Part shown: positions 4,121 to 38,187 of the stretch, piece after piece
Position numbering within the stretch: position 1 is the stretch's first letter
Layout: every line of letters starts with the position of its first letter
IMG/VR virus record: IMGVR_UViG_3300044971_003894
Location: 1-55,863 of that record
Strand: one strand, 5' to 3'
DNA: 55,863 nt
Origin: a virus
Notes under the pieces: model-generated
Told to the model about the DNA's origin: nothing
The model's database searches: none
The model's input: the letters and a program-made list of their open reading frames with translations, nothing else
Program-made: the position numbers and the translations under genes

Positions 4121-4166
4121 TAAGGTATTGACACCGAAAGGTGTTATTTTACTTATAGGAGGATCT

Positions 4167-4694
4167 ATGAATAAAGAAGATTTTATTACTGGAGTTGCCG
4201 GAAGTTTTATTGCTGCCGTAGTTGGTTTAACTGGGGCTAACGCAAATTCAGAAGAAATTGTACCTATAGAAACAGCAAATGAAAAGGTTGAGTCAGGAAC
4301 TCCATCCGCAATAAAGGAAAAATATGCGAACGTTACTACTTTGTCAGACAAGGAACTAAAGACTTTACTTAAAGCAGTTGGCTTTGAGGGCCAGGGTTTA
4401 AAAATGGCTTGGGCAGTTGCTAAAAAAGAAAGCAATGGCAGGCCTTTAGCCTTTAATGGCAATAAAAACACTGGAGACCATTCATTTGGAATATTTCAGA
4501 TTAATATGAATGGTGAGTTAATGGAAAGCAGAATAGAAAAATTCGACCTTAACTCAGTTTCTGATCTTTTTAATCCAGTGACTAACGCAGAAATTGCATT
4601 TTATATGACAAAAGGTGGAAAAGATTGGTCATCATGGACTTATCTTAATGGAGAAAGAATTAAAGAATTTTTAGCCAAGTATCCAACAGTTTAA
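4167..4694 (+). CDS. Secreted lysozyme/transglycosylase-like protein
   Basis: 175 residues from the ATG at 4167 (AGGAGG 5 nt upstream). Residues 1-27 form a signal peptide (hydrophobic core ITGVAGSFIAAVVGLTG, then ANANSEE). The catalytic domain has WAVAKKESNGRPLAFN with Glu88 as probable catalytic acid, then HSFGIFQINM, the SLT/goose-lysozyme pattern; late on, WSSWTYLNG fits the same fold. It would cleave peptidoglycan glycan strands. It is the only plus-strand gene among the fibre genes and has its own strong promoter, so its timing differs from theirs. It may aid host wall entry or lysis alongside the CHAP endolysin at 53108. Confidence 0.75.
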   Translation: MNKEDFITGVAGSFIAAVVGLTGANANSEEIVPIETANEKVESGTPSAIKEKYANVTTLSDKELKTLLKAVGFEGQGLKMAWAVAKKESNGRPLAFNGNKNTGDHSFGIFQINMNGELMESRIEKFDLNSVSDLFNPVTNAEIAFYMTKGGKDWSSWTYLNGERIKEFLAKYPTV

Positions 4695-5309
4695 TTAAAA
4701 ATAGGCAATAGCCGTATATTTTGTTCCAGATGTAACTTCAAGTTCTCTGTGTTCATAACTGTTATTTGCTGGATATATCAAAACATCTCCTGCAGATAGT
4801 TTTATGGCCTCATTACCAATCCTGTTTTTAAACTGAATTTCTCCACCGACATAATCATCGTTTAGCGCTACAAGAATTGTGTAAAAATGTTTTTGTACTG
4901 CGTATTTATCTAAGTCATTGTGAAAGTCAGAACTTTTAATTTGCTCGCAAATTTTAAAATTTTTTATTTTTTTAACTGATAACTCATATTCCTTTATATA
5001 ATCATATAAAAAAGGAAAAATATAATTTTGCATTTCAAATTTTAAATTATTTTTTTTAATAGATTGTTCTAAATTAATTTTTAACAAATCAACATTTAAA
5101 ATATCTGACAAAAGGTCTTCGTAGTTCAACAAATCAGCAATTTTTTGATTAACAACATGATTAGTGTCTTCTCCATTATGTAAAGAAGAAATAGCCCACA
5201 CATTTTTTGTTGATGGGGCAATTTCTATTTTTTGTAACAGTTCTACAAAATTTTTATTTGTATTTTTAGAATACAAAACAATAAAATTATCTAAAACAGT
5301 CTTAATCAC
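4695..5309 (-). CDS. 2OG-Fe(II) oxygenase, prolyl/lysyl-hydroxylase type
   Basis: 204 residues with a GTG start that overlaps the upstream stop in GTGA. The C-terminal double-stranded beta-helix is clear: HND (first Fe ligands), then ILVALNDDYVGGEIQF, GDVLIYPANNSYEHREL (distal His) and SGTKYTAIAYF (2OG-binding basic residue at Lys). The N-terminal 120 residues are unrecognised. It is coupled to the degenerate Hint protein 5306-5881 and behind the Hint protein 5887-6810, so its substrate may be a product of this operon. That link is inference. Confidence 0.8.
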   Translation of the reverse strand: MIKTVLDNFIVLYSKNTNKNFVELLQKIEIAPSTKNVWAISSLHNGEDTNHVVNQKIADLLNYEDLLSDILNVDLLKINLEQSIKKNNLKFEMQNYIFPFLYDYIKEYELSVKKIKNFKICEQIKSSDFHNDLDKYAVQKHFYTILVALNDDYVGGEIQFKNRIGNEAIKLSAGDVLIYPANNSYEHRELEVTSGTKYTAIAYF

Positions 5310-5881
5310 AATTTGTAATCCTTTATCATTAAATCACTAAAGCATATAAAATCTTCTGTTAAAAAAAAGTAATTATCCAATAGTTCTAGATAAACTAAAC
5401 CCTGTATCTCAATATCTTGACTAAAGTTGTCAATTTTTCTTTGTAAAAATGATTGATCCATGTTAAGAGGATTAGGGTTTAAAGATTTAAGAAAATACTG
5501 AAAAGATTGATCAAAGGTAAGTGTATTTATGATTTTGTTAACATTTTTTAAATACATGTCTTCTGATTCAAAACTTGTTTGCATTAAAATTGAATTTGTG
5601 CCTAACAACATTTTCTCATTTAAACTGTTAAGGATTTTAAAATTTTTATCAATAAAAACAGAATATACTTTTGCTGAACATAAAATGACATCTTCGTTTT
5701 TAATAGAACGTGCTTTTGGGGTACCATTTGATGTTATGTATTTATAATAAAATTCTGAAGGACTTAAATTTTCTGAATTTTTTATTTTAATAGATAAAAC
5801 TTTATCTCCAAATTGTAAATCTTCAATGTTTTTTAAAGTTTTATCTTCAAGATATACCTTTGTTCCAATTGGAAATCCCAT
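5306..5881 (-). CDS. Degenerate Hint-fold protein
   Basis: 191 residues. The start, GFPIGTKVYLEDKTLKNIEDLQFGDKVLS, matches the first strands of Hint (hedgehog/intein) domains, usually written C-x-x-GT-x-V-x3-DG-x3-I-EDL-x2-GD-x-V. The catalytic Cys position is Gly-Phe here, and the C-terminus (NYFFLTEDFICFSDLMI) lacks the His-Asn of inteins. It should therefore be fold-only, without splicing. It lies 5 bp after a complete Hint protein and overlaps a 2OG oxygenase. Could also be a tail component using a Hint-like scaffold. Confidence 0.6.
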   Translation of the reverse strand: MGFPIGTKVYLEDKTLKNIEDLQFGDKVLSIKIKNSENLSPSEFYYKYITSNGTPKARSIKNEDVILCSAKVYSVFIDKNFKILNSLNEKMLLGTNSILMQTSFESEDMYLKNVNKIINTLTFDQSFQYFLKSLNPNPLNMDQSFLQRKIDNFSQDIEIQGLVYLELLDNYFFLTEDFICFSDLMIKDYKL

Positions 5882-5886
5882 AATTA

Positions 5887-6810
5887 CTACTTATTGTGCA
5901 CTAAATAATTGCCTGCAATAAACCAGTCTGCTGGCTCACAATTAAATTGATAAACAGTTGTATCTTTTGTTAATGTATTTACACTTTCAATTAAAACTTC
6001 TGTAAAACTTCCATCTTCGTTTACTTCTATTAAATAATCTCCAATTTCAATTGCTCCTGCTGGCGCTACTTGATAAAAATTCTTTGATTTTATAAAAATT
6101 GGCTGAGTAGTTGAAAATAATTTTTCTATACCGTCATTAAAATACATAACTTTATCTCTTGTAGAGGGCTCCATAGCAACAATGCGTGTAGTTGTTTTAC
6201 TTACTGGAGTTAATGTTTCTGAAATCATGCCTACATAGTCAAAATCATATTCTCCTGTAATATCACTTTGTGGAATTTCTAGCAAGTCAACACTATCAAC
6301 TTCATCACCAACTTTTAAATCTTTAGCCGCAACTGGACCATTAGGTGTGCTAATTAAAGTATTTTCATCAATACATTTTGGTGGACTAAACGTAAAAACT
6401 GGAGTAAAACCAAACGGAGTAAAACCAAATGCTCCAAATGGAGTAAAGCCAAATGGAGTAAAACCAAATGTAAGAAATGAAAATGATGAGACTGGAGTAA
6501 AACCAAATGGAGTAAAACCAAACGGAGTAAAACCAAACGGAGTAAAACCAAATGCTCCAAATGGAGCAAAACTAAAAGTTTGATTTTCTAAATTAACGGT
6601 AGTCCCAATAGGCTTTACCTCTCCTGCTGGAATGCTTTGAGTTTTAATCTTATTGTTTTGCCCAGTATCTCCTGTATTTACATTTGTTGTACTATAATTA
6701 AACCCAGCATTTGTTAAATTTGTTTCTGCAGTAGTTTTGTCAACTCCAACCAAATTAGGGATTGAGTTTTTGCGTGATCCTTTATTTCCACGTCCAATAT
6801 TTTTTGCCAT
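5887..6810 (-). CDS. PASTA + FGFTP-repeat + C-terminal Hint domain protein
   Basis: 307 residues from the ATG at 6810, which overlaps the stop of the fibre gene 6810-7430 (TAATG). Residues 17-78 resemble one PASTA domain (IPNLVGVDKTTAETNL...IPAGEVKPIGTTV), which in other proteins binds peptidoglycan stem peptides. Residues 80-140 are low-complexity repeats of FGFTP/FGAFGFTP. Residues 146-306 are a Hint domain: Cys146 opens it (CIDENTLISTPNG), with KDLKVGDEV, TTQPIFI and the terminal DWFIAGNYLVHN before a last Lys. The usual block-B His appears as Gln (TTQP). It could self-cleave or link a fibre tip; activity is unproven. Confidence 0.75.
   Translation of the reverse strand: MAKNIGRGNKGSRKNSIPNLVGVDKTTAETNLTNAGFNYSTTNVNTGDTGQNNKIKTQSIPAGEVKPIGTTVNLENQTFSFAPFGAFGFTPFGFTPFGFTPFGFTPVSSFSFLTFGFTPFGFTPFGAFGFTPFGFTPVFTFSPPKCIDENTLISTPNGPVAAKDLKVGDEVDSVDLLEIPQSDITGEYDFDYVGMISETLTPVSKTTTRIVAMEPSTRDKVMYFNDGIEKLFSTTQPIFIKSKNFYQVAPAGAIEIGDYLIEVNEDGSFTEVLIESVNTLTKDTTVYQFNCEPADWFIAGNYLVHNK
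6395..6575 (-). repeat. FGFTP-coding tandem repeats
   Basis: Direct repeats of about 15 and 12 bp (units such as GGAGTAAAACCAAA on the plus strand) encode Phe-Gly-Phe-Thr-Pro units in the Hint-bearing fibre protein. Two arrays are separated by a unique VSSFSFLT stretch. Such repeats vary in number by slippage. Confidence 0.8.
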
Positions 6811-7430
6811 TATGCAACCAAATCTCCCATAGCAACCCAAGTATTTGCTGCACGCTTTACTAGAGTTACGCTAGACCACTGCGTTCTAATTTTTAGCCCT
6901 GGGGTAGCATTTACTGTAACTCCCGATGCTCCAGCAAGTGTAACTTGAGAAGAAGAAGTTTGTAAAACATCAATAGCAGTTCCAATTGGAAAGTTAACAC
7001 TAGAGTCAAGTGGGACTGTTAATGTTCCTCCGGCAGACATTTCTATTAATTTAAAAGAATCTGAAATAACAAGAGTATAAGAAGAAGATTGTTGATTGAA
7101 TGTGTATAGAGGATCTACAATTGATAGCCAATTTGTTCCATCATAAACTTGTAAATCATTTATAACGCTTCCATTGGCATCTTGTTTTAAAAATATAACA
7201 GTTCCATAAATTGGTGTTGGAATTGCTGCTAATGCTGCTGCTGGGTTTAAAAATATATTAACATTTTTTGCAATTACGGTAGAGTTTAAAGATACAGTAG
7301 AATCAAATGTTTGTCCTGCGGTCCAGGTGTATGCTGCTGCAGTGTTTACTTTTCCTGCAAGTTCATACCACTGGTCAGTGGCTTCATCATAAACATATCC
7401 TGGCCTTGGTGTTGAATTAAATGTTGTCAT
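6810..7430 (-). CDS. Tail-fibre protein
   Basis: 206 residues, opening RPGYVYDEATDQWYELAG, a common tag of actinophage and cyanophage fibre proteins. A beta-rich body follows, ending in SSYTLVISDSFKLIEM...GTAIDVLQTSSSQVTLAG, a fold repeated at the C-terminus of many phage fibres. Overlaps neighbours on both sides by 1 bp, so it is in one operon with 7430-7873 and the Hint protein. Confidence 0.7.
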   Translation of the reverse strand: MTTFNSTPRPGYVYDEATDQWYELAGKVNTAAAYTWTAGQTFDSTVSLNSTVIAKNVNIFLNPAAALAAIPTPIYGTVIFLKQDANGSVINDLQVYDGTNWLSIVDPLYTFNQQSSSYTLVISDSFKLIEMSAGGTLTVPLDSSVNFPIGTAIDVLQTSSSQVTLAGASGVTVNATPGLKIRTQWSSVTLVKRAANTWVAMGDLVA

Positions 7431-26283: not shown

Positions 26284-26934
26284 TTAGATCTTGCTATCAT
26301 CAGTAACATTTATTTGTGCTAAAAACCTCTTTCTCCTTGCTTCCCAAGTGTCAATATCTGCAGGAAAATCAAAGTCTTCAGTCCAATCATCTATCTCTAC
26401 GGAGTGAAATTTTTGTTTATCTTGGGTTAATTGGTCATACAAACGCCAACCACCAGCACTGTAATTCTCTTTGGATTCTATGATTTTTAATATCGTAGAC
26501 TCTAAGATAGGAATAGAAAAACCTTCAAACCCTATACCCCATATCTCCTTCCATAACTTCTTTGTAAGGTGAGAAGGTTTGCTACGTAGATAAAATGATA
26601 GGCCATAAGGATCATTCATAATTCGTTCAACTGCTTCATCGGTAAAGTACACATCTGCAAAAACCAGAATATTCTTACCCTCTGTCCAGATATCCCTACT
26701 TGAGTAGAACTTGGCTATATCTCTCCATGCTTTATTTTCAGGGGGGATATAAGTCTGGGCAAAGCCTTGTTCCTCATTAGCGACGATTATGACCTTATCT
26801 GCATACTTAGAAAATTGCCGATATGTCCGTTCAACCAGGACTTCACCTTCAATTACGACTCTATGCTTTGGAACGCCTCTATAGTTGTCCCACCTCGTGC
26901 CACTACCTGCTGCGAGGATAAAAACCGTTTTGAT
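26284..26934 (-). CDS. MobA-like nucleotidyltransferase with apparent ATC start
   Basis: The frame opens with KTVFILAAGSGTRW, the nucleotide-binding loop of MobA/RmlA-like NTP transferases. PKHRVVIEGE follows (the Lys of the conserved 'PK.l'), NILVFADVYF holds the metal Asp, and FPADIDTWEARR near the end is the second metal motif. Total 216 residues, normal for the family. No ATG/GTG/TTG precedes the motif: an in-frame TAG lies only three codons upstream of an ATC at 26934-26932, which has AAGGA 4 nt before it. So either ATC starts translation, or a +1 shift from the overlapping rsmI-like gene feeds it, or the sequence carries an error. Family members activate sugars or polyols as nucleotide conjugates. 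Confidence 0.7.
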   Translation of the reverse strand: MKTVFILAAGSGTRWDNYRGVPKHRVVIEGEVLVERTYRQFSKYADKVIIVANEEQGFAQTYIPPENKAWRDIAKFYSSRDIWTEGKNILVFADVYFTDEAVERIMNDPYGLSFYLRSKPSHLTKKLWKEIWGIGFEGFSIPILESTILKIIESKENYSAGGWRLYDQLTQDKQKFHSVEIDDWTEDFDFPADIDTWEARRKRFLAQINVTDDSKI

Positions 26935-27652
26935 CTTTTCCTTCTATTACGATCATTATTTTATCTTTAGTTTGTCTATGTTTGAGTATGTATTCTAATA
27001 AGTAAGATATCTTTCCTCTGACGACAGTCTCATTATCCATGGTTAAATTGATACAAAGGGTTGCTTGTCTATCCCCCCAGATTTCTATAATTTCAGGAAA
27101 TACCTCTTCAATTTCTGGTAAAAATTCTTTTGGAGATATGGCATTTCTAAGCATAAATACATGAGCCATGGGGTTATCCTTTAAACTTAATAATTGACCC
27201 TTTCTAAAAATTTTATCTTTTGCAAAAAAAGAATGAAAGGAAAAATTATGTCCCATAGCGGCAACTGTTACGGCTGCTATGACTGCACTTGGACCAGGAG
27301 TGGCAGACACCTTTATCCCGTGTTCACCGCATCTTTTTATTAGCCTTGCTCCTGGATCTGCAATCCCTGGCATCCCGTCATCACAAATTAAATAAACATC
27401 TTCTCCCATTTTTAAATATTTCAGCACCTGAGCCGTTATTTCTTTTTCTGCTGGATCTTGAGCCATATTTTTGTTTTGAGTAATAAGATACAGAATGTTA
27501 CAATCACTTTTATCTATTTTAAAAGTGTGCAAAAATTGCTCAAATTGTTCAGTATTCTCAACTACAAGGTGTTTGGCATCTTTAATCATTTGAAGGTTTC
27601 TGGGTGGCATGTCTGCGTAATTACCCACTGGAAGACCTACCACATATAACAT
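26903..27652 (-). CDS. RsmI-like tetrapyrrole-methylase-family SAM methyltransferase
   Basis: 249 residues from the ATG at 27652, where TATACT ends 6 nt upstream. LYVVGLPVGNYADMPPRNLQ is the RsmI-type N-terminus; CDDGMPGIADPG (91-101) is the family's active-site loop and ATPGPSAVIAAV the SAM-pocket loop. RsmI 2'-O-methylates C1402 of 16S rRNA. The C-terminal third is shorter than in RsmI (about 280). Overlaps the nucleotidyltransferase frame by 32 bp. Substrate could be rRNA or another nucleic acid or small molecule. Confidence 0.75.
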   Translation of the reverse strand: MLYVVGLPVGNYADMPPRNLQMIKDAKHLVVENTEQFEQFLHTFKIDKSDCNILYLITQNKNMAQDPAEKEITAQVLKYLKMGEDVYLICDDGMPGIADPGARLIKRCGEHGIKVSATPGPSAVIAAVTVAAMGHNFSFHSFFAKDKIFRKGQLLSLKDNPMAHVFMLRNAISPKEFLPEIEEVFPEIIEIWGDRQATLCINLTMDNETVVRGKISYLLEYILKHRQTKDKIMIVIEGKDQNGFYPRSR

Positions 27653-27664
27653 CAAACCAGTATA

Positions 27665-27959: not shown

Positions 27960-28133
27960 ATGGCTAAAAAGAAAAGCAGTTTACTGTCTTCTGGTAAAAC
28001 TGGTACCTCAACTGGGGCTATGGAGTACACAAAAGGCTATATGAAAAGAAAGCGCAAACAAATGAGAGATGAAGAAAAAGTCTGGCAATCACTTAATGGT
28101 CCAATTACTGTTAGGAAAATAGATAATGCATGA
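27960..28133 (+). CDS. 57-residue basic protein
   Basis: MAKKKSSLLSSGKTGTSTGA then MEYTKGYMKRKRKQMRDEEK. Start at 27960 after GAAAGG. Lys/Arg-rich. Unknown; nucleic-acid binding is possible. Confidence 0.55.
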   Translation: MAKKKSSLLSSGKTGTSTGAMEYTKGYMKRKRKQMRDEEKVWQSLNGPITVRKIDNA

Positions 28134-28284
28134 ACTAATGGATACAAACCTTACTTGGGATGATGGTGATATATGGAAGGGTTGGACTTATAGCCCCGAA
28201 AAAAATCGCTATTACTTTGATGATATTGGGAATGAGTCTTTGTGTGCCCTTTGGGATAGTGAATTCCTAATGCAGGCATATTAG
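28126..28284 (+). CDS. 52-residue hypothetical protein
   Basis: NLTWDDGDIWKGWTYSPEKN ... ESLCALWDSEFLMQAY. 8-bp overlap with the gene before (an internal ATG at 28138 is an alternative). Unknown. Confidence 0.5.
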   Translation: MHELMDTNLTWDDGDIWKGWTYSPEKNRYYFDDIGNESLCALWDSEFLMQAY

Positions 28285-28299
28285 AATATTAACCGATAG

Positions 28300-28315
28300 T
28301 GCACCGCTAGGTGCA
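28300..28315. terminator. Short GC hairpin
   Basis: TGCACC / GCTA / GGTGCA after the stop of 28126-28284, with T-rich DNA about 10 nt later. Probable terminator. Confidence 0.5.
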
Positions 28316-28377
28316 TAGATTAGTTTACTCTTTCTATTTTTCGCCGAAATTTAAAACTATTATGATAAACTTAAAGT

Positions 28378-28869
28378 ATGGATAGAACGCCCAAAATCAT
28401 AGATAATTTAATAAAAGAAGACGAATTCCTAAAACTACAAACTTATTTTAAGGCAAACTACAAAAACTATCACTGGCAAAATAGAGAAGGTAGATATATT
28501 AATGACTCAATGAATCTGCCAATTTTAAAAGATTTTTTATATTCAAGTTTAGACATTGTTAGAAAAACTTTAGGCAATGACAAAATTTTGCCGACCATAG
28601 GATTTTTTGCACATTATGAGACTAACGCAATAGTCACCAAACACAAAGATTCTTATGGAGGAACTCATACCCTAGATATACCTTTATATCAGACTGAGCC
28701 ATGGGATATATATGTTGAAGATACTCCTTACACTTTAAAAGAAAATCAAGCATTATTTTTTTGGGGAGAAGAGCAAAGTCACTCAAGAAAAAGATTAGAA
28801 AAACCAAACGCTCATGTTGCTGTTCTTTTTTGTCATTACGCAGAGCCTGGTCATTTGAGACATAGGTAA
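28378..28869 (+). CDS. 2OG-Fe(II) oxygenase-like protein ('HWR' type, divergent)
   Basis: 163 residues. KHKDSYGG provides HxD, TEPWDIYVED the central strand, and EEQSHSRKR the distal His where relatives have HWR. A TAAACT box ends 6 nt before the ATG. Shorter than its relatives (191-245). Substrate unknown. Confidence 0.65.
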   Translation: MDRTPKIIDNLIKEDEFLKLQTYFKANYKNYHWQNREGRYINDSMNLPILKDFLYSSLDIVRKTLGNDKILPTIGFFAHYETNAIVTKHKDSYGGTHTLDIPLYQTEPWDIYVEDTPYTLKENQALFFWGEEQSHSRKRLEKPNAHVAVLFCHYAEPGHLRHR

Positions 28870-28882
28870 AAAATTTTAAAAA

Positions 28883-29206
28883 TTAAAGTTTGTTTTTAAT
28901 AGTTTTATTAATGATATTTATTACTTTACGTGATGAGATAGACTTGGAACTAAAGGCCTCGGTATATCCATGTTGTGGCATATCTTCTTTCTTTAAGTGA
29001 GTCTCTGGGAATCTATTACGAAAAACCTTTAAAACCTCCTGTTCTACAAGCCTAGCACTATCCCTATTTTCAAAATACCAATAACGAATAATCATCCAGC
29101 CCTTTACTCTGTGTTGAGAATATCTACGATTAGATAGATTGGATATCCCAACCTTAAAGGCTTTAAGAGATGGAGAGTATATTAGGTATAGTAAGGCTCT
29201 TTCCAT
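28883..29206 (-). CDS. T5orf172/GIY-YIG-like nuclease-fold protein
   Basis: 107 residues. LLYLIYSPSLKAFKVGISNL (the Y-x-I...K-V-G-I-S strand pair), RRYSQHRVKGW, RYWYFENRDSARLVEQEVLK (catalytic-type Glu helix) and HGYTEAFS match the T5orf172 branch of the GIY-YIG fold. Such proteins cut DNA or act as homing-like endonucleases. TATACT ends 6 nt before the ATG (leaderless). Divergent from 29268. Confidence 0.65.
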   Translation of the reverse strand: MERALLYLIYSPSLKAFKVGISNLSNRRYSQHRVKGWMIIRYWYFENRDSARLVEQEVLKVFRNRFPETHLKKEDMPQHGYTEAFSSKSISSRKVINIINKTIKNKL

Positions 29207-29220
29207 TTATATAGTATATC

Positions 29221-29249
29221 TTGACTTATCCCCGTTTTTTTGGTATACT
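29221..29249 (+). promoter_or_regulatory. Promoter for 29268
   Basis: TTGACT (29221-29226), 17 bp, TATACT (29244-29249), then AAAGGAG before the ATG. Confidence 0.7.
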
Positions 29250-29267
29250 GATACAAAGGAGAAAAAA

Positions 29268-29390
29268 ATGACAGCATTATTGGTATTGTTTAGTTTTTTT
29301 ATTGGTTTTATTTCTTGCTATTTTTATATGACAAAAGGCATAGATCAAGACGGAGTTTGGGTATCAAATAAACCATCTGAAGATGAATAA
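29268..29390 (+). CDS. 40-residue membrane protein
   Basis: MTALLVLFSFFIGFISCYFY (one transmembrane helix) then a short polar tail. Strong AAAGGAG site. Unknown. Confidence 0.6.
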   Translation: MTALLVLFSFFIGFISCYFYMTKGIDQDGVWVSNKPSEDE

Positions 29391-29399
29391 GGGGTATAA

Positions 29400-29585
29400 A
29401 TGAAAAAAAGTAACGATAAAGTTTCTAAATCTAAAGTTAAAAGATCAAATAAAAACAAGAAAAGATTGTCAAATAAGGTTCAATTATCTAAATTTCAAAG
29501 ACAACAAAAAAGTATTTATGAAAAAATAAGAGGGATGACCTATGCAAATATTTTACAAAATAAAAAAGATAACGAAAAAGAATAA
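29400..29585 (+). CDS. 61-residue Lys-rich protein
   Basis: Very basic N-terminal half (KSNDKVSKSKVKRSNKNKKR), then LSKFQRQQKSIYEKIRGMTY. Coupled to the next gene by TAATG. Likely binds nucleic acid or ribosomes; unproven. Confidence 0.55.
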   Translation: MKKSNDKVSKSKVKRSNKNKKRLSNKVQLSKFQRQQKSIYEKIRGMTYANILQNKKDNEKE

Positions 29586-30508
29586 TGAGTGGACAATTAA
29601 TTTTTGTCGGTGTTGATTTAGGAAATGTTAACGATATTACTGTTAGGGCTTTAGATATAATTAAAGAAACAGATGTCTTTATTGTAGAAGATAAAGGATT
29701 CTTTAAAAATAAATTAAAACAATTAAACATTATAGATAATAAAAAAATTTATCAATGGCCCAATCCGACTGTAGATCTTCGAACCGAAATTATGAAAAAG
29801 CACAGTTGGCAAGGTATATCAGATGACGAAGTAATTAAAATAATAAAAGAAACTATTGATAGTAACAAAAATGTTGTATATTGTTCTGCCGAAGGAATGC
29901 CTGGAACCACAGACCCAGGGACAATGTTAGTTTCTTTGGCATTAAAAAATAAAATTCCTTATACTGTTTGCCCAGGACCATCAATTTCTTCTTTAATTCT
30001 TAGCCATTCTGCCTTTGCATCTAGTGAATTTATATATAAAGAACTAATTCCAGCAAGCAAAAAAGATCAAGATATTTTTTTGTTAGATTTACTTGATCAT
30101 GGAATGCCTTGTCTTTTTCCTTACATTAAAACAGATCACCAAGACTCAAAAACTTTTATATTAGAATTTTTAGACAAAGTTATTGATATTTTTCCAAATA
30201 GCACTTTTATTACAATAGTAATTAATGCCACAACAATTAACGAATTGATTATAAATGACTTTATAACAAATGCAAAAAATCAATTATTAGATTATGATTT
30301 TGACGTGCCATTTAAAATGTCTTTTCTTATTATACCTACATCATCTGATAGGCTACCAGAAGAAAATCATAAAAAAATAACAAAAATTCTTTTTGAGGAG
30401 ATTGGCAAAATTAAAGTTCATACAATAGACATGAACAACGCTATTTTAGAAATTGAGTACGATAAGATAGCAAATAGAATTATAAGTGAAATTAAAGGTT
30501 TAAGTTAA
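29585..30508 (+). CDS. Tetrapyrrole-methylase-family methyltransferase (second RsmI-like)
   Basis: 307 residues. LIFVGVDLGNVNDITVRALD, VEDKGF, then CSAEGMPGTTDPG and TVCPGPSISSLILSHSAFAS are the N-terminal and SAM-site motifs of the RsmI/CobA fold. It is divergent from the one at 26903 and has a longer unrecognised C-terminal half. Coupled to the basic 61-residue protein. Methylation target unknown; rRNA is one possibility. Confidence 0.7.
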   Translation: MSGQLIFVGVDLGNVNDITVRALDIIKETDVFIVEDKGFFKNKLKQLNIIDNKKIYQWPNPTVDLRTEIMKKHSWQGISDDEVIKIIKETIDSNKNVVYCSAEGMPGTTDPGTMLVSLALKNKIPYTVCPGPSISSLILSHSAFASSEFIYKELIPASKKDQDIFLLDLLDHGMPCLFPYIKTDHQDSKTFILEFLDKVIDIFPNSTFITIVINATTINELIINDFITNAKNQLLDYDFDVPFKMSFLIIPTSSDRLPEENHKKITKILFEEIGKIKVHTIDMNNAILEIEYDKIANRIISEIKGLS

Positions 30509-31105
30509 TTTTTTTAAATAAATGTCTGAGGTAAGGTTGTCATTTAAGGCAAAAGCGTAAACGTACCAATCAGAATTTTTATAAAGAAAATCATTAATTG
30601 CATGAACTGTCCCTTGTTTTTTTCCTGTATTTGTATCATTCTCATAAATATTGTAATCATTAAAGCCTAAAATTCCATCTATACTTAACCTAGATTTTGA
30701 TATTTCTATTTGATGTTGTATTGAGGTATACGAAGTATCATAATCCATATATAAAAAATCAAAAGTATCTTTATTGTTTAAAGCAAAATCTTCATATTTT
30801 CCTTGAAAAAGTTTTACTGTTGTTATATTAGAAAATCTTTGTTTTACAAAATTAAAATGCTGCTCTGGCCCATGCCACCTGCTTTCATGATATTCGGCAG
30901 CATTCCAATCAAGAGACTCGTATGGGTCAATTAAGATAGATTTAGACGGAGAGCAAACCTCTATTACCTTGGCAGAAAAATCTCCAGCCAAAACTCCAGC
31001 CTCTAAAAATGTTAGCCCTTTCGGCAACGTTTTTATAAACTCATCACGACTACTATACAGTTTTGCATATTTTAGACTATCTTGTGGAATTAAAAAATTT
31101 GCCAT
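30500..31105 (-). CDS. Class I SAM-dependent methyltransferase
   Basis: 201 residues from the ATG at 31105: TATAAT (31112-31117) ends exactly 6 nt upstream, so the longer frame to 31129 is rejected. LIPQDSLKYAKLYSSRDEFI, TFLEAGVLAGDFSAKVIEVC (motif I), DTFDFLYMDYDTSYTS, DGILGFNDYN. Close paralogue of 12491-13177. Confidence 0.75.
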   Translation of the reverse strand: MANFLIPQDSLKYAKLYSSRDEFIKTLPKGLTFLEAGVLAGDFSAKVIEVCSPSKSILIDPYESLDWNAAEYHESRWHGPEQHFNFVKQRFSNITTVKLFQGKYEDFALNNKDTFDFLYMDYDTSYTSIQHQIEISKSRLSIDGILGFNDYNIYENDTNTGKKQGTVHAINDFLYKNSDWYVYAFALNDNLTSDIYLKKLT

Positions 31106-31143
31106 AAAATTATTATAACATATGGTCATGATACAATATGTAT

Positions 31144-32493
31144 ATGAACAAAAATGGTCAAATTACGCCAGTCAATGTGCCAACAAAAAAAATAGATAAC
31201 ATTAGTAAAATAATTGGTACTGGCCCAGACACAATAAAAATAATTAAAAATTTTATTCCGCAATCTGATATCGATGAATTTGTAAATTTTGGAAAAATAA
31301 TGTCAAAAGTTGAAAAAAATAAAACACACCATTTTATTGTTAATGCAACTGATCCCGTATTGCAAGAAAAATTTAAAAAATATGAAAATATGCTAAGGAA
31401 TAAAGCAGAAGAACTATATGGATTAAAGTTGAATAAAGATAGACCCTTAGATTTATTTATTCATCCAGAAGGATCTTACCTTGAGCCACATACAGATATC
31501 ATTGATTATCATCAAGAAGAAGTTTATGATCAGCCCAATTTATTCGCCGAGCAAGAAAAAGTTTGGCCATTTTTGTGGAGTGGGCATCTGTCTATTCTTT
31601 GTTATTTAAACAAAGATTACGATGGGGGAGTTTTGTATTTTCCAGATCAAGGAGTCGAAATTGTTCCTGAGCCAGGAATGTTTGTATGTTTCCCTGGAAA
31701 TTTACATTTTCTTCATGGAGTAACACAAACTACTGGGGCAACAAGGTTTACCCTTTCGTTATGGACTAGATTTAGTGATTTTAAAAATGAAATTATAGAA
31801 TCAGAGTCTATGAATTTGCAAAAACCAAAAATGAGTGAATATTTTAAAGTAGAAAATATTGCTACAGCAGATCCTAAAAAAATATTTACTGACTCAATTA
31901 GAGGTGAGACTAAAATAAAAGATAAAGCAACTATTTTTTTGGGAACCAATAAGGATACAATTAAAATTGTAAAAAATTTTATGCCTAAAGATGATCTTGC
32001 CGTCATAAATGAATTATGTAATTTTTTTTATAGAGAAGATCTAATTAATGAAAAAAATATCCCTATCGCTAAAAATTTAATATTAAAATATAAAGAAAAA
32101 ATTAAAAATATTTCAGAAGATTTATTTAAATTAAAATTAGAACACGATGATGATGCAAACAGGTATAACATTAAAAGTGATTATTTAAATGGTAGATTGC
32201 CTTACTTTGCAACTAATATTCATAGCGATATATTGACTGATTTTGACAATAATATTAAATATGACTGGAGTGGGCACATATCAAATTTGCTATATTTAAA
32301 TGATGATTACGATGGCGGAGAATTATATTTTCCTGAGCATGATTTTAAAATTAAACCAGAGCCAGGAATGTTGGTGTCTTTTCCAGGAAATTGGTACAAC
32401 AGGCATGGGATAATGCCAGCAAGCGATTTCAGATATGCAATTAATGTATTTTTAAAAATTTCTGGATATCCAGATCAACCAGAATATATATGA
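31144..32493 (+). CDS. Tandem two-domain 2OG-Fe(II) oxygenase
   Basis: 449 residues from the second ATG (31144), set by TACAAT 6 nt upstream. Two complete P4H-like domains: the first with EPHTDIID, LNKDYDGGVLYFPD and FPGNLHFLHGVTQTTGATRF; the second with NIHSDILTD, LNDDYDGGELYFPE and FPGNWYNRHGI...FRYAI. Both carry HxD, distal His and the basic 2OG residue. About 30% alike by eye, so probably an internal duplication. Substrate unknown; hydroxylation of two sites or of a repetitive substrate is an inference. Confidence 0.8.
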   Translation: MNKNGQITPVNVPTKKIDNISKIIGTGPDTIKIIKNFIPQSDIDEFVNFGKIMSKVEKNKTHHFIVNATDPVLQEKFKKYENMLRNKAEELYGLKLNKDRPLDLFIHPEGSYLEPHTDIIDYHQEEVYDQPNLFAEQEKVWPFLWSGHLSILCYLNKDYDGGVLYFPDQGVEIVPEPGMFVCFPGNLHFLHGVTQTTGATRFTLSLWTRFSDFKNEIIESESMNLQKPKMSEYFKVENIATADPKKIFTDSIRGETKIKDKATIFLGTNKDTIKIVKNFMPKDDLAVINELCNFFYREDLINEKNIPIAKNLILKYKEKIKNISEDLFKLKLEHDDDANRYNIKSDYLNGRLPYFATNIHSDILTDFDNNIKYDWSGHISNLLYLNDDYDGGELYFPEHDFKIKPEPGMLVSFPGNWYNRHGIMPASDFRYAINVFLKISGYPDQPEYI

Positions 32494-33050
32494 GACCAAT
32501 CTTTAAAAGTTTGTTTTGTTTTTTTTGCTTGCTCAATTTCATTTAAAGGATTTGTTGTAGACGAATGTCTCCAATGATTTTCGCCAATACAATTAAAACA
32601 AATCATTTCTACAAACTCATCATCACCAAATAACACCTTTTCTCTCCAGTGCGCTTCTTCCTCTCCCTCAAAGCAAACTGCATCATTATCTAATAACTCT
32701 ATTCTTTCTCCCTTAATAAACAAATCCCATTTTTTATTAGTTTTAACTTGATAATCAAATACTACTTCGCAAGCATAGTCATCTTTATGTGGCAATAGTT
32801 TTGGGGTTCCATATTCTTTTTTAAACCTCATAAAACCAATATCTTTTACTATTAATTTTTTATTATATGTGCTGTTAACGTAGGCTTCAACTTTATCAAT
32901 AATATCTCTATTTAAACTATCTAAACCAATTAATTTTCTTCCTGTCTGCCTATATATTTGTCCAGCCCCTGAATCTTCTGTTTCTTTTATATTATTTAAT
33001 ATAATATTTATTTCTTCTTCATTAAAAAAATTATTAATTATCTTATACAT
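32475..33050 (-). CDS. 2OG-Fe(II) oxygenase-like protein ('HWR' type)
   Basis: 191 residues. YKIINNFFNEEEINIILNNI, LPHKDDYACEVVFDYQVKTN, KWDLFIKGERIELLDNDAVC, EEEAHWREKV, CIGENHWRH. Very similar to 39684-40271 in length and all blocks. TATAAT ends 6 nt before the ATG. Its 3' end overlaps the convergent tandem oxygenase by 19 bp. Confidence 0.75.
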   Translation of the reverse strand: MYKIINNFFNEEEINIILNNIKETEDSGAGQIYRQTGRKLIGLDSLNRDIIDKVEAYVNSTYNKKLIVKDIGFMRFKKEYGTPKLLPHKDDYACEVVFDYQVKTNKKWDLFIKGERIELLDNDAVCFEGEEEAHWREKVLFGDDEFVEMICFNCIGENHWRHSSTTNPLNEIEQAKKTKQTFKDWSHIYSG

Positions 33051-33077
33051 ATTTTTATTATATCATTAAATAAAAAA

Positions 33078-33099
33078 GGCCACACATTTCTGCATGGCC
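33078..33099. terminator. Bidirectional intrinsic terminator
   Basis: GGCCA / 12-nt loop / TGGCC with A-runs before and T-runs after, so it serves both strands. Downstream of the holin-like gene 33115-33387. Confidence 0.75.
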
Positions 33100-33114
33100 A
33101 ATTTTAAATTAAAC

Positions 33115-33387
33115 CTATTTCTTTTTCTTTGCAGCAGCCTTCTTTACAGGGGCCTTAGCAGCCTTTAAAGCCTTGTCTACGGACTCAACAGTTGGTAGTA
33201 GACCAAATGCCTGATCTCCAGGATTTATTGCACGTAATAGAACGGGCGCAATGGCAGCCACTAGAGCAGCCCATAGATCCTTTGGATCTGTGATACCAGA
33301 CATGTATAAGGCAATTCCTGCACCTAATACTGATCGACCATAGGATGCTCCCATAGCCTTTAATTGTTTAGTGTCAATGTTTGACAT
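33115..33387 (-). CDS. Holin-like membrane protein
   Basis: 90 residues. YGRSVLGAGIALYMSGITDP, LWAALVAAIAPVLLRAINPG, DQAFG: two hydrophobic helices around 'ITDPKDL', a layout of phage holin-like proteins, then an Ala/Lys-rich tail. AAGGAGAAAC before the ATG. Could act in lysis, though the endolysin is 20 kb away. Confidence 0.6.
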   Translation of the reverse strand: MSNIDTKQLKAMGASYGRSVLGAGIALYMSGITDPKDLWAALVAAIAPVLLRAINPGDQAFGLLPTVESVDKALKAAKAPVKKAAAKKKK

Positions 33388-33453
33388 GTTTCTCCTTTTT
33401 ATATATTTTTATTCCCCCGTTTAAAGGGTACCTCTATTATAGCACTATCAACC

Positions 33454-34446
33454 CTAAACCTTTACTTTATATCCTTTTGGACATTTAGGATTAATTCCAT
33501 ATATTTTCTTTATTTCTTTTCCTTTATAACATTTTATTGTTACTTTAATAATTGATTTTTTGGTTAATGGAGAGTTGGTTGGTGTTGGTATAATTACCAC
33601 ATTTTGCTTGGCAACATAATCTTCTGCTTCTTTAATTAAAGATAAATAATCGTATGCTGCTACTGACCCCATATTCATTTCATTTGTCTTCCATCCGTTA
33701 CCACTGCAATTTGGAATTCCACCAAAACCCCAAGACAATGGCCCTAAATAGATAAAGGTTTCTCCATCTTTTATATAAAATGGCGACCCTGAATCACCAG
33801 AACAGGTGCTTGGCCCTCCAGGAACTTGAAGTACGTGAATTTTCATTCCATAGTGACCAACCCCACTATAATTATAAACTTCGGATACTACAGCGTTAAC
33901 TCTTTCATTTGAAATTAATGGAAATTGTGCATATTTTGGCTTTGTAAGATCGTTTTGTTTATGTTCTTTGCTTTGCATACCATAGCCAATTGTTGTGACC
34001 ATGGCTTTGTTTTTTATATAATTGTCCACCTGTTCTTTTGTAGCAATATATGCTTTTCCAGGAACTGAAATTTTATTTTTTAAAACCAAAACAGCAAAAT
34101 CATCGGTATCTGAATAATCTTTTTCTGTTTTAATTTTCCAATTTGAAAAAGTCTTTTCTATAGAAAATAATTCGTACTCATTGCTGTTTGGCACGTAAGG
34201 CATACCTGGTTTTCCTATATACTGCTGTTTCCATAAATTTTGTGTGTATCGGTCAAATATACAATGCCCTGCAGTTAAAACAATTTTTTCAGAATATAAA
34301 AATCCAGTACAATTTTTGCCACTACCTTGAATTATAAGAGGGACTGTTCTCCCATCATTTAGCGCATCAGGAGCATTCTCCATAGAATGTGCTGGAGAAG
34401 CAATAGAAATTAATAAAACAGTTAGGATTGTTTTTATTTTTGTCAT
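33454..34446 (-). CDS. Secreted S1 (trypsin-like) serine protease
   Basis: 330 residues. Signal peptide 1-21 (cut near AHS-ME). Catalytic triad visible: LTAGHC (His61), TDDFAVLVL (Asp116), TCSGDSGSP (Ser219). The C-terminal tail, TIKCYKGKEIKKIYGINPKC then PKGYK, is a two-Cys motif I associate with secreted proteins of freshwater actinobacteria, suggesting capture from the host. TATACT ends 6 nt before the ATG. Would act outside the cell or on the envelope. Confidence 0.85.
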   Translation of the reverse strand: MTKIKTILTVLLISIASPAHSMENAPDALNDGRTVPLIIQGSGKNCTGFLYSEKIVLTAGHCIFDRYTQNLWKQQYIGKPGMPYVPNSNEYELFSIEKTFSNWKIKTEKDYSDTDDFAVLVLKNKISVPGKAYIATKEQVDNYIKNKAMVTTIGYGMQSKEHKQNDLTKPKYAQFPLISNERVNAVVSEVYNYSGVGHYGMKIHVLQVPGGPSTCSGDSGSPFYIKDGETFIYLGPLSWGFGGIPNCSGNGWKTNEMNMGSVAAYDYLSLIKEAEDYVAKQNVVIIPTPTNSPLTKKSIIKVTIKCYKGKEIKKIYGINPKCPKGYKVKV

Positions 34447-34452
34447 ATATAA

Positions 34453-34481
34453 AGTATAGTGTCAAATCAATGATTTGTCAA
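34453..34481 (-). promoter_or_regulatory. Strong promoter of the S1 protease gene
   Basis: On the minus strand TTGACA (34481-34476), 17 bp, TATACT (34458-34453), then 6 nt to the ATG. Confidence 0.75.
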
Positions 34482-34483
34482 TA

Positions 34484-34576
34484 TTAATATATAAAAGTTC
34501 GTGGCTTATTTATTTGTTTTTTAATTTTTCTTATTTGTATTTTAAGTTTTATATATCTCTTTATTTTATTTATCAT
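34484..34576 (-). CDS. 30-residue basic peptide
   Basis: MINKIKRYIKLKIQIRKIKK then QINKPRTFIY. Starts 1 bp after the SGNH gene's stop, with AGGAAAA upstream. Overlaps the promoter of the protease gene. Cationic amphipathic; unproven. Confidence 0.35.
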   Translation of the reverse strand: MINKIKRYIKLKIQIRKIKKQINKPRTFIY

Positions 34577-34577
34577 A

Positions 34578-35498
34578 TTATTTTCCTAATTGCTGATATT
34601 TTTTATAGAATTCATCAGCCCAAAAATGATGAAGAATCCTTCCAGCATGATGATCTCTTTTGCTATAATCATCTTTTTTAATTTCATGATCTTTATAATA
34701 TGTCTTGGCATAATCTTCAATCTTATTGTTTTGAATATTAACAAAATTGTCAAAGCCTTCTAGCCTAGATATGCTTTCTTTATCTATAGAATCCCACGAA
34801 GAAAATATTAAATTGATATTTTTTTGTACACACAATTCGCTAAAAATTTTCCAAGAAATCAAAAAATAAACAAAATCTTCTAGATGTTCTTTAGGCTCTG
34901 TTGCAAAGTCGGGATCGTTTGCTTTGTCAGGATTTTTCATCATGTAGACTTTTGGGTATTTTTGCCAATATGCCCACGGATGTCCATGACTAGAATAAAG
35001 AAATTTTCTTTGATGATTTGGCAACATAATAAAATAGGTATCAGGGTATCCATACTTTTTAAAATAAACTAAAGCATTTGTTATAATTCTTGACCAGCCC
35101 CAGCCAGATCTTGACAAATTAAAAAATCCAGAACATTTTTCTTCTTTAGACAAAAGATCATACAAGACTTTAGACCAAGCGTCTTCTATGTTTCCGCCAA
35201 CACCCTCTGTTTCTGAGCATCCAGAAAAAAGAATATGCTTTCCATTATGAACATTAGTAAAGTCATCAGATCTAAACTTCTGTTTGTTATAATTATAAAT
35301 AACCAAACCATCATCAATAGTTTCTTTTTCTGGTTCAATTATGCTAAATGTTTTTTGTTCGGTATTTCTCATCCATGTTGTATCAAATTCATTCTTAAAT
35401 AAATCCATAAAAATATTATTTGGGTCAGTAAATATGTAGTCTTCTGTAACAGGAGAAGACGAAACATGTTTTGGAATATAGTTATAGTTATTTGTCAT
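34578..35498 (-). CDS. SGNH/GDSL-hydrolase-like protein
   Basis: 306 residues. ILFSGCSETEGVGGN holds the block-I Ser, GFFNLSRSGWGWSRI the block-II Gly, and KRDHHAGRILHHFWADEFY the block-V Asp-x-x-His. About 110 N-terminal residues are unassigned. SGNH enzymes add or remove acyl groups on glycans. Coupled to the methyltransferase 35498-36193 (1-bp overlap). Probable glycan-tailoring role. Confidence 0.65.
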   Translation of the reverse strand: MTNNYNYIPKHVSSSPVTEDYIFTDPNNIFMDLFKNEFDTTWMRNTEQKTFSIIEPEKETIDDGLVIYNYNKQKFRSDDFTNVHNGKHILFSGCSETEGVGGNIEDAWSKVLYDLLSKEEKCSGFFNLSRSGWGWSRIITNALVYFKKYGYPDTYFIMLPNHQRKFLYSSHGHPWAYWQKYPKVYMMKNPDKANDPDFATEPKEHLEDFVYFLISWKIFSELCVQKNINLIFSSWDSIDKESISRLEGFDNFVNIQNNKIEDYAKTYYKDHEIKKDDYSKRDHHAGRILHHFWADEFYKKYQQLGK

Positions 35499-36193
35499 TA
35501 GCAGTCCTTTTTTATATATATATCATAAAATCCTAGAGCATGTAATGCTATTGCATCAACGCTCCAATTACTATTATAGCGTAAAAACTCATTTACTACC
35601 TGAAATGTTGCGTATGGCTTGTCTTCAATTATTCCATCATAAATTAAATAATCATTTAGGCCAATAATTCCTCCATCTTTAACTAATAAGGAGGCTGCTT
35701 GAAGGGTGGGCCTTATGTCTTTTCTATCGTTAGTTATATCTAAATATATATAGTCATATTTATTTAAAATATTTTTTAATATTTTTTTACTATCCCCTTT
35801 AAACGTTTTTACGTTGTTGTATGTACTGAATTTATCAACTATATAGGCTTCATGCGTTTCTGGAGTATATAATAGTTCATGTTTTTGCCCCGAACATTTA
35901 CACTCTCCAAATTTTCTCCAAGACCAACACTTTAAATCTTGATCAAAATAATCTACCAGGTGTATGCATTCTGGGGCTTTTTGTTTAGCAACCAATTCGG
36001 AATAATATCCCCAGGCTACCCCTACCTCCATATAGTTTAAACCAAAAGGAAGGGTCTTGATGTATTCTTCTCTAGACGAATATATTTTTGCAAGATTAAG
36101 TTTGTCTTGATCAATTAAATAAGCACAGTCTATTTGATCATCTAACAAAACAAAGTCATCAGAAGATGCAGGAGGCACTGGCATTCTTGACAT
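35498..36193 (-). CDS. Class I SAM-dependent methyltransferase
   Basis: 231 residues from the ATG at 36193, set by GGAGGAG 7 nt upstream; the frame extends to 36253 without a better start. LAKIYSSREEYIKTLPFGLN, YMEVGVAWGYYSELVAKQ (motif I), YDYIYLDITNDRKD, GGIIGLNDYLI. Paralogue of 12491 and 30500 with an inserted Cys-containing segment (FGECKCSGQKH). Acceptor unknown. Confidence 0.75.
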   Translation of the reverse strand: MSRMPVPPASSDDFVLLDDQIDCAYLIDQDKLNLAKIYSSREEYIKTLPFGLNYMEVGVAWGYYSELVAKQKAPECIHLVDYFDQDLKCWSWRKFGECKCSGQKHELLYTPETHEAYIVDKFSTYNNVKTFKGDSKKILKNILNKYDYIYLDITNDRKDIRPTLQAASLLVKDGGIIGLNDYLIYDGIIEDKPYATFQVVNEFLRYNSNWSVDAIALHALGFYDIYIKKDC

Positions 36194-36194
36194 C

Positions 36195-36368
36195 TTATAA
36201 CTCTCCTCCGTCAATTTCAGTAGGTGCTGTTGCCAAAGATCCGCAATCAGCACACTTCATATCTAAGAAATATAAGGCAATTGCACCATCTTCAAACATT
36301 GCCTTAATATTCCAAACCTTAGAGCCACATACGCATACATGTGTAGGTGTGCCCCGTAAATCTATCAT
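36195..36368 (-). CDS. 57-residue zinc-ribbon protein
   Basis: HVCVCGSKVWNIKAMFEDGA ... MKCADCGSLATAPTEID: CxC and CxxC, a pattern common in actinophage and mycobacteriophage small proteins. Ends 1 bp before the methyltransferase start region and carries its ribosome site. Unknown function. Confidence 0.65.
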   Translation of the reverse strand: MIDLRGTPTHVCVCGSKVWNIKAMFEDGAIALYFLDMKCADCGSLATAPTEIDGGEL

Positions 36369-36370
36369 TG

Positions 36371-36601
36371 TTATTTTACTGCCTTTCGTGTTAACAAAAC
36401 AATTGCCCCATTTTCTTCTAATGCTTTTTTAACTTTTATCATATATTGTACTGCTTCTATTTTGTCATCATGCCCTAATTTTACAAAAGCCACCTCGTCT
36501 GCTCGAACAACTAAAAAATGTTCATTATCTACAAGATCAACACTAAAATTTTTAGGGGCCCTGATAGACCTAAAGGCTCTACGCATACTGTCTGTATACA
36601 T
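36371..36601 (-). CDS. Small hypothetical protein
   Basis: 76 residues. YTDSMRRAFRSIRAPKNFSV, VDNEHFLVVRADEVAFVKLG. This 'FLVVRAD...F..L....K..AV.Y..KVK.ALE..GAIVL.TR' pattern is widespread in actinophages. Overlaps WhiB's stop by 1 bp. Unknown. Confidence 0.6.
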   Translation of the reverse strand: MYTDSMRRAFRSIRAPKNFSVDLVDNEHFLVVRADEVAFVKLGHDDKIEAVQYMIKVKKALEENGAIVLLTRKAVK

Positions 36602-36894
36602 TATAATTCTTTATCCATTGTTAATGCTTTCCAATGAGTTGACCACTTTTCTTTTGTTTTATGAGAATTAAACTCTTTTGACGGCTCCCCTTCTTCTAAA
36701 TATATCCCTCCCCAAAGGCCATATTCTTTACCAGATACTCCGACTGCAAAGCATTTTTTTAATACTGGACAATTTAAACAAAATTGATCTATCCCATTTT
36801 TATAATCTATACTGCCTTCTTCGTATTGCTCAAAAAAAACACTAGTTGGTTGCCCTAAACATAAAGCAGAATCTTTCCATTTATGATCCTTCAT
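36601..36894 (-). CDS. WhiB-like iron-sulfur transcription factor
   Basis: 97 residues from the ATG at 36894 (AGGAAG upstream). Four cysteines at 12, 39, 42 and 48 (C-x26-CxxC-x5-C) bind a 4Fe-4S cluster, followed by YGLWGGIYLEEGE, the G-[VIL]-W-G-G turn that defines Wbl proteins. Wbl proteins bind the principal sigma factor and occur essentially only in actinobacteria and their phages, so this is the best host marker here. A phage WhiB can interfere with host Wbl regulation (known for mycobacteriophage TM4). Confidence 0.9.
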   Translation of the reverse strand: MKDHKWKDSALCLGQPTSVFFEQYEEGSIDYKNGIDQFCLNCPVLKKCFAVGVSGKEYGLWGGIYLEEGEPSKEFNSHKTKEKWSTHWKALTMDKEL

Positions 36895-37609
36895 TATACT
36901 TCCTAACATCAATACCAACTGGGTCTATTTTGTCAAAATCTGGCAGACCTTCCCAAAGTTGAACAGAATCTAAGTATGAATATTTCTTAGACTCTTTAGG
37001 CGCCTCATTAACATCAAAAGCATACCAAGATGGCATGGTGTACCTGGTTCCACTTTCTACTCTTTGAACTGTATGCTTGTATGCATTGTTTCCTGGAAAC
37101 ATAATCATATCTCCTGGCTTTGGCTTTAAAACTAAATCATAGTCTGGAAAAGTAATTTCTCCCCCAGTGTATTTGTCATTTGGATACATCAAAACTGCTA
37201 CATTATAAGTATAAAAATCTGCAGCATATGCTGGAGTCCCATCTGGTTTTTCACAATCAGAGTGCAATTTAGAATTCATCCCAGGGATCCATTTAACAAA
37301 ATGCGTAGAGTTAACTGGCTTTCTAATAATAGGAATTTTATATTTTTCAGTAAAAAGTTCATTTACTTTTTCATATATTTTTTTCTCATATTTATCAAGA
37401 ATTTTTGCAACTTTTGGATTTTCTTTTTCAACTTGATCTTCTCTTAAATCTTTTCCGCCCATAAATTCATCATTATTTTCGTACAAATCAAGATAATCAT
37501 TAATGGCTAGCAAATCTTCATGGCTAATAAAATTATTAATTATAACAATGTTGTCTTTATTTTTTCCTAAAACATCAAAATAGTTTTGATACGGTTGATA
37601 ATTTGTCAT
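36881..37609 (-). CDS. 2OG-Fe(II) oxygenase (P4H type)
   Basis: 242 residues. SKLHSDCEKP (HxD), VAVLMYPNDKYTGGEITFPD, GDMIMFPGNNAYKHTVQRVE and SGTRYTMPSWYAF give all Fe and 2OG ligands. Overlaps the WhiB start. GGGAG precedes the ATG. Same family as 31144, 41637 and 47295. Confidence 0.8.
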   Translation of the reverse strand: MTNYQPYQNYFDVLGKNKDNIVIINNFISHEDLLAINDYLDLYENNDEFMGGKDLREDQVEKENPKVAKILDKYEKKIYEKVNELFTEKYKIPIIRKPVNSTHFVKWIPGMNSKLHSDCEKPDGTPAYAADFYTYNVAVLMYPNDKYTGGEITFPDYDLVLKPKPGDMIMFPGNNAYKHTVQRVESGTRYTMPSWYAFDVNEAPKESKKYSYLDSVQLWEGLPDFDKIDPVGIDVRKYNEGS

Positions 37610-37821
37610 TTTTTTACTCCCAAATTGTTTGGTAAGTACCAGCCTTTTTCCGTTATTGGATAGCGCCTATCAATGCCCCAACGGTTATTAAGAAATGATC
37701 CAGACTTATGACTAAATCCATTAATTGTAATTTCTCTTGAAATTATATCCCAGCCAAACCATCTTAAATCTTTATTAGATTTAACAATTTGCTCGGCTTC
37801 TTCTAGTTTTTTAATTAACAT
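37606..37821 (-). CDS. Small hypothetical protein
   Basis: 71 residues (IVKSNKDLRWFGWDIISREI ... RYPITEKGWYLPNNL). AAGGAGATAT ribosome site. ATGA overlap with the oxygenase. Pattern known from short phage proteins; role unknown. Confidence 0.6.
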   Translation of the reverse strand: MLIKKLEEAEQIVKSNKDLRWFGWDIISREITINGFSHKSGSFLNNRWGIDRRYPITEKGWYLPNNLGVKK

Positions 37822-37830
37822 ATATCTCCT

Positions 37831-38187
37831 TTAGTACTGGAATGTTCCCAGTTCTACTCCTTGGTCTTTGGCCTTTTTTGCCAATACCGATATTGGTTGT
37901 TTTGTGTTGCTAAAAAATGCAAAATAATTCATTTGTGATAAATATGTACTAACCCAAGAATCTGTTGTTTGATGCATTTGAATCTTTTTGCCTCTTCCTT
38001 TCATTCCCCTTTCAGAAAGATTACAAAACTCCATAGCAAATTCTTGTATTTTACTATTTCTAGATCCTACAACGTAAAGGGCTAACTCTTTGTCTTCTGG
38101 TTTCATGTTAGATAAAACAACGCCCATGGCACGCAAAAAAACCGAGTACTCTTTAAACTCGTTAGTTCCCTGTATCACTACCATCAT
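37831..38187 (-). CDS. Hypothetical phage protein
   Basis: 118 residues. VIQGTNEFKEYSVFLRAMGV, MNYFAFFSNTKQPISVLAKK. Alpha/beta, possibly a Rossmann-like nucleotide-binding fold, but no clear family. Starts 26 bp inside the membrane-protein gene upstream. Confidence 0.55.
   Translation of the reverse strand: MMVVIQGTNEFKEYSVFLRAMGVVLSNMKPEDKELALYVVGSRNSKIQEFAMEFCNLSERGMKGRGKKIQMHQTTDSWVSTYLSQMNYFAFFSNTKQPISVLAKKAKDQGVELGTFQY

Follow-up and report, generated by a model that had tools for sequence, protein, structure and literature searches.

The window, meaning the whole stretch of DNA analysed, is an IMG/VR virus record of 55,863 bases. Three consecutive genes on its minus strand, listed in Table 1 together with the gene just upstream, encode a stalk protein with a C-terminal Hint domain, a probable free-standing relative of that domain and a 2OG-Fe(II) oxygenase. 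The stop codon of the upstream gene runs into the stalk gene's start codon in the overlap TAATG, and the C-terminal half of its product is ~50% identical to minor tail proteins of Gordonia phages. In nearly all of the related loci described below, the gene upstream of the stalk likewise encodes a minor tail or fibre protein. This minor-tail setting and the C-terminal position of the domain support an earlier proposal that the Hint is borne by a fibre-type protein. The Gordonia match and a gene for a WhiB-like regulator (36601-36918, minus strand) suggest an actinobacterial host. At the other edge of the locus, an SLT/lysozyme-like gene (4128-4694, plus strand; Pfam SLT_3, 1.6e-15) ends against the convergent oxygenase gene. 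The phage also carries many modification enzymes, among them glycosyltransferases, a carbamoyltransferase, two tetrapyrrole-methylase-type genes and a DUF6065 gene (1426-2175, 44101-46017, 50869-52320, 26903-27655, 29585-30508 and 48801-49529).

Table 1. Features of the stalk locus in the window.
Feature	Position	Strand	Basis
Minor tail or fibre protein, just upstream of the stalk gene	6810..7430	-	PHROG 8780 minor tail, 2.1e-19
PASTA, FGFTP stalk and C-terminal Hint protein, 307 aa	5887..6810	-	ATG 6808-6810, stop 5887-5889
PASTA domain, residues 17-74	6589..6762	-	Pfam PF03793, 1.1e-7
FGFTP/FGAFGFTP repeat stalk, about residues 87-134	6409..6552	-	Sequence
Hint (BIL-like) domain, residues 146-306	5893..6375	-	2lwy profile match, AlphaFold model, Foldseek
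Cys146, Hint residue 1, predicted nucleophile	6373..6375	-	Cys/Ser conservation in relatives
Block B, Ser233-Thr-Thr-Gln236 replacing Thr-x-x-His	6103..6114	-	2lwy alignment; Gln/His variation
Asp295 at the block-F His position	5926..5928	-	2lwy alignment; stalk-Hint sample
C-terminus, His305-Asn306-Lys307, then stop	5890..5898	-	Sequence
Free-standing, probable degenerate Hint relative, 191 aa, no Cys1, no His-Asn	5306..5881	-	Profile, hhalign, model
GTGA stop/start overlap of the degenerate-Hint and oxygenase genes	5306..5309	-	Sequence
2OG-Fe(II) oxygenase, 204 aa, HND at residues 130-132 (4914-4922)	4695..5309	-	PF13640

The PASTA/FGFTP/Hint make-up that the first-pass annotation had assigned to the stalk gene is borne out by the ORF translation, Pfam, profile comparison and AlphaFold. 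That annotation had also placed a Cys at the start of the Hint, a Gln in place of the usual block-B His, and the end of the protein one residue past the Hint His-Asn pair; these are Cys146, Gln236 and the terminal His305-Asn306-Lys307, respectively. A second active-site change beyond those it described is the replacement of the block-F His by Asp295. The scissile bond is predicted at Lys145-Cys146.

Judged by its predicted structure, the C-terminal domain is a member of the Hint superfamily, with the Hedgehog/intein fold. As a single sequence it falls below the Pfam cut-offs (Hint_2, 0.0057; Intein_splicing, 0.012) and gave no phmmer match in the PDB, and the stalk-Hint protein has no match in PHROGs. 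A 35-member profile matches the solved Clostridium thermocellum BIL domain 2lwy at 1.4e-7, along with several inteins; in the alignment to 2lwy, Gln236 falls on the His of block B and Asp295 on that of block F. The first-pass annotation had proposed structure prediction as a check and had staked its reading on a Hint fold being found; AlphaFold predicts this fold with confidence (pLDDT 93.2, pTM 0.88). A Foldseek search of the PDB with the model returned 56 matches at E<=0.001, the best 50 of the 56 all being BIL, intein or Hedgehog structures, and among the matches listed BIL domains are the closest solved structures. When searched against phages by tblastn, the window Hint retrieved mainly intein block-A fragments and a Cys1 relative retrieved no matches, while a query from the Ser1 clade described below retrieved Erwinia-type fibres.

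The stalk-Hint protein belongs to a large IMG/VR family found at the minor-tail locus. Scanning with the pattern F-x-A-G...V-H-N-K-stop gave 60 loci. A second scan, keyed on block F and demanding neither Cys1 nor the HNK-stop ending, gave 58 loci with 33 distinct proteins, and all 33 have both Cys1 and the HNK-stop ending. Since only block F was used for selection, the conservation of these two features exceeds chance. Scans for the stalk repeats were used to avoid selecting on Hint features, and the loci of the earlier scans were analysed together with their results. Among the matches listed, a Hint is present on 48 of 58 distinct FGFTP stalk ends and on 20 of 118 distinct FFP stalk ends, and a stop falls within 60 amino acids of the last repeat in 84 of the 118 FFP and 8 of the 58 FGFTP stalks. 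A cap is therefore dispensable for a stalk. Some FFP stalks, those of loci L254, L276, L337 and L292, end in YSSKRFKHSI or SDYRLKDDI, a candidate likeness to the start of the S74 chaperone, which would make for another cleavable cap.

Residue 1 is Cys in 34 and Ser in 39 of the 73 distinct fused Hints among the matches listed, despite low overall identity. In the same listed set, block B has His in 50 sequences, Gln in 22 and Glu in one; Asp occupies the block-F position in 68 of 73; and the C-terminal pair is His-Asn in 32 and His-Asp in 30, with few exceptions. A Hint tree resolves two clades separated by one switch, with Cys1 paired with Asn and Ser1 with Asp. Gln at block B is found in most of the Cys1 clade and a minority keep His; some of the members with His have 10-15 residues after HNK. 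The L093 protein is one relative that has the block-B His. In the sister clade, some Hints have FD as the C-terminal pair or have lost it. Loci L154, L171, L173 and similar FGFTP-stalk Hints show Ser1, a block-B His, His-Asp-Ser and a conserved tail of ~30-60 residues; this Ser1/His-Asp-Ser sister clade is possibly a Ser/Asp splicing-type Hint. The tree also groups the Hints of PASTA stalks (L093/L095) with those of Fn3 stalks (L212/L206), apart from the Hints of the stalk orthologues, which suggests that domains were exchanged within a genome between the Hints of PASTA and Fn3 stalks in a single phage group.

Three loci of the family (L145, L146 and L148) provide stalks that naturally have no Hint. 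Each keeps the synteny and a PASTA-FGFTP gene, with the PASTA domain confirmed by Pfam, and the protein ends in FSPPFR or FAPPNFR at the place where the window protein reads FSPPK followed by Cys146. A fused Hint was not found elsewhere in these three records, which are incomplete. The three contigs represent only two lineages. In a tree of three neighbouring genes they share a branch with the Hint-bearing L093/L095, in a grouping with weak support, and their Hint-less state may be ancestral instead of mimicking a mature form.

The gene after the stalk had been described as Hint-like but devoid of the Cys and Asn. The missing residues are indeed missing, and the kinship to Hint domains is probable, with a profile E-value of 8.4e-4, an hhalign probability of 76% and a low-confidence model (pLDDT 54.5, from an alignment of eight sequences) whose best match is BIL2 at 2.7e-3. 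Eight distinct sequences of this free-standing relative, from roughly five lineages, all lack Cys1 and His-Asn. It is unlikely to act as a regulator of the fused Hint, as it persists in the three incomplete records in which no fused Hint was found.

The third gene was correctly read as a 2OG oxygenase joined to the second by a GTGA overlap. Its PF13640 match (1.4e-5) lies just under the curated cut-off in one search and over it in another, and the HxD...H iron triad is present as HND plus a distal His. Among the oxygenases at this position, HxD is kept in the window, L076 and L148, and the iron ligand is lost in three of five lineages: L082 (HNN), L093/L095 (IDD) and L145/L146 (YSD). Other stalk-adjacent oxygenases keep HxD almost without exception. 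Among the matches listed, 516 of 1020 ORFs downstream of stalk genes are oxygenases compared with one of 280 upstream, as detected by an HMM that was trained on Hint-locus neighbours and may be biased in its sensitivity; neither the loci without a Hint nor the contrast between upstream and downstream depends on that bias. Two records, of 82 and 70 kb, have no PF13640 match other than the oxygenase of the trio, so that its linkage to the locus is real. The pattern is equal for short-tailed and Hint-bearing stalks. A coupling of the oxygenase specifically to the Hint is rejected, since stalks that lack a Hint are followed by oxygenases as frequently, which makes these genes part of the stalk locus. 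An attractive if hypothetical idea is that the enzymes hydroxylate the stalk, which is rich in Pro and Phe. Arrays of 2OG-Fe(II) oxygenase genes, with up to ten PF13640 genes in a record of 36 kb, occur both in the window (28000-48000) and in many loci downstream of the stalk gene; they are concentrated on that side and nearly missing upstream.

The first-pass annotation had regarded the three genes as a module and had proposed a search for the trio in other phages. The gene order is kept across about five divergent lineages, and to that extent the module stands. As one functional unit it is not supported, because the degenerate Hint and oxygenase genes persist without a fused Hint, following the Hint-less stalk in all three of those loci, and because the iron ligand has been lost in the lineages named above.

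The reading that we favour, at slightly better than an even chance, is that the stalk is made with a removable C-terminal Hint cap that cleaves itself off and frees the stalk at the fibre tip. Once folded, the Hint would shift the acyl bond preceding residue 1 onto the side chain of that residue, Cys here and Ser in the sister clade. Breakage of the resulting (thio)ester would release a PASTA-FGFTP stalk ending at Lys145 and discard the ~160-residue Hint, presumably with water as the acceptor in a hydrolysis. Cyclisation of Asn306 could then take off only one lysine; N-terminal cleavage would therefore be the step that matters, as in BIL and Hedgehog domains and unlike in an intein. Such a cap may help fibre folding, solubility or the timing of assembly. 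The degenerate Hint and the oxygenases would be neighbours of the stalk that stand outside the cleavage reaction. We infer cleavage from the domain architecture, the predicted fold, the invariant nucleophile and the Hint-less stalks that end at the predicted cut. Because those relatives stop exactly there, self-removal of a cap would appear to be common in the assembly of such fibres, as predicted from their sequences. The main doubt about the predicted cleavage comes from block B, where Gln takes the place of the key His; the block-F His is also replaced, by Asp. The block-B His has been called 'the most conserved intein residue', and a single functional exception among inteins is recorded (PMC4031507).

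This doubt leads to the main rival, which is unlikely but carries real weight: the Hint may be catalytically dead and serve as a stable structural cap, a trimerisation domain or a receptor-contact domain at the fibre tip. Replacement of both assisting His residues is what an inert cap would allow, as are the sister sequences that have FD for the C-terminal pair or have lost it and the upkeep of a clearly dead, separate Hint of like kind next door. The invariant Cys/Ser could in principle be structural in role. However, Cys or Ser at residue 1 in 73 of 73 fused Hints among the matches listed, and an HNK-stop ending in 33 of 33, would not be expected of an inert cap, and some members of the same clade retain the block-B His.

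Less probable than an inert cap, and by our estimate improbable, is a transfer of the stalk, in which an amine or hydroxyl of a virion protein, a glycan or the host surface attacks the (thio)ester and the stalk is left covalently attached. This corresponds to the ligation suggested by the first-pass annotation. Hedgehog and type A BIL domains offer precedents (PMC4031507, PMC7765530), and both the invariant nucleophile and the retention of His-Asn in the Cys1 clade would suit such chemistry. On the other hand, no acceptor was found, the C-extein is a single Lys, and Hint-less stalks are common and evidently function without a Hint. The proposal can be put more specifically: a catalytically competent Hint family, in which Ser-x-x-Gln at block B and Asp at block F make up an alternative active site, would work as a transferase that joins the stalk covalently to a virion or host-surface molecule. 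In that form it is slightly less probable again.

Very improbable is a protein-splicing element whose C-extein has disappeared or is disappearing, with the Ser1...His-Asp-Ser sister clade and its tail of ~30-60 residues still splicing. That clade combines Ser1, a block-B His, a terminal Asp (30 His-Asp sequences among the matches listed) and a Ser at +1, inteins with a terminal Asp or Gln are known, and some Cys1 members with the block-B His have a 10-15 residue extension after HNK. Nevertheless, the C-extein in the window is one residue long, no uninterrupted homologue of a host protein defines the exteins, and the domain always lies at the end of a stalk. A class 3 intein, with an internal Cys nucleophile, is rejected, for although Cys291 is frequent in block F, it sits three residues beyond F:4, and the domain does have Cys1.

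If the predicted cap does cleave, phage fibres would have a self-removing cap that fills a role like that of cleavable fibre chaperones with the intein/Hedgehog fold as its scaffold. It would do so without the histidine held to be, among the catalytic residues of this fold, the most conserved. Natural controls are at hand in the block-B His and Gln forms, the Cys1/Asn and Ser1/Asp pairings and the stalks that lack a Hint. Relatives occur in cultured phages of Erwinia, Dickeya and Yersinia, Dickeya phage AD1 and Erwinia phage Y3 among them, and open the cleavage question to testing on real virions.

Among known systems, type A BIL domains (C. thermocellum 2lwy; Tetrahymena thermophila BIL2, 6y75), as described in PMC4031507 and PMC7765530, share with the window domain the Hint fold, a Cys at the residue-1 position (Cys/Ser), a C-terminal His-Asn, a +1 residue that is not a Cys, Ser or Thr nucleophile (here Lys, then the stop) and a place on a variable, non-housekeeping protein. 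They differ in that the window domain has Gln for the block-B His and Asp for the block-F His, stops one residue after His-Asn with no real C-extein, and sits on a phage fibre-tip stalk. As the block-B Thr-x-x-His is lacking, the domain is termed BIL-like and not a canonical BIL. Nor does it interrupt a host protein between N- and C-exteins as an intein does, with just one residue after the domain. The Hedgehog autoprocessing domain (1at0; Foldseek 9.1e-6) is also a C-terminal Hint for which N-terminal cleavage is the useful step, as proposed for the window; unlike it, the window protein has no sterol-recognition region that we found, and it retains His-Asn. Closer in setting, a related Hint ends the collagen-like fibre proteins of cultured jumbo phages of Erwinia, Dickeya and Yersinia, pEa_SNUABM_17 and fHe-Yen9-02 among them. 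This Hint resembles that of the window in its C-terminal position, Cys1, block-F Asp and His-Asn near the end, and differs in having a block-B His, ~10 residues after His-Asn and a collagen instead of a PASTA-FGFTP stalk. The T-even gp38 tip adhesin/chaperone is a separate protein that acts on the main fibre, gp37, or at its tip, with no Hint reported (PMC12892980), and its likeness to the window system would be one of position and role only. Among the open-licence papers searched, those on phages describe inteins, and none was found with an account of a C-terminal Hint on a phage fibre.
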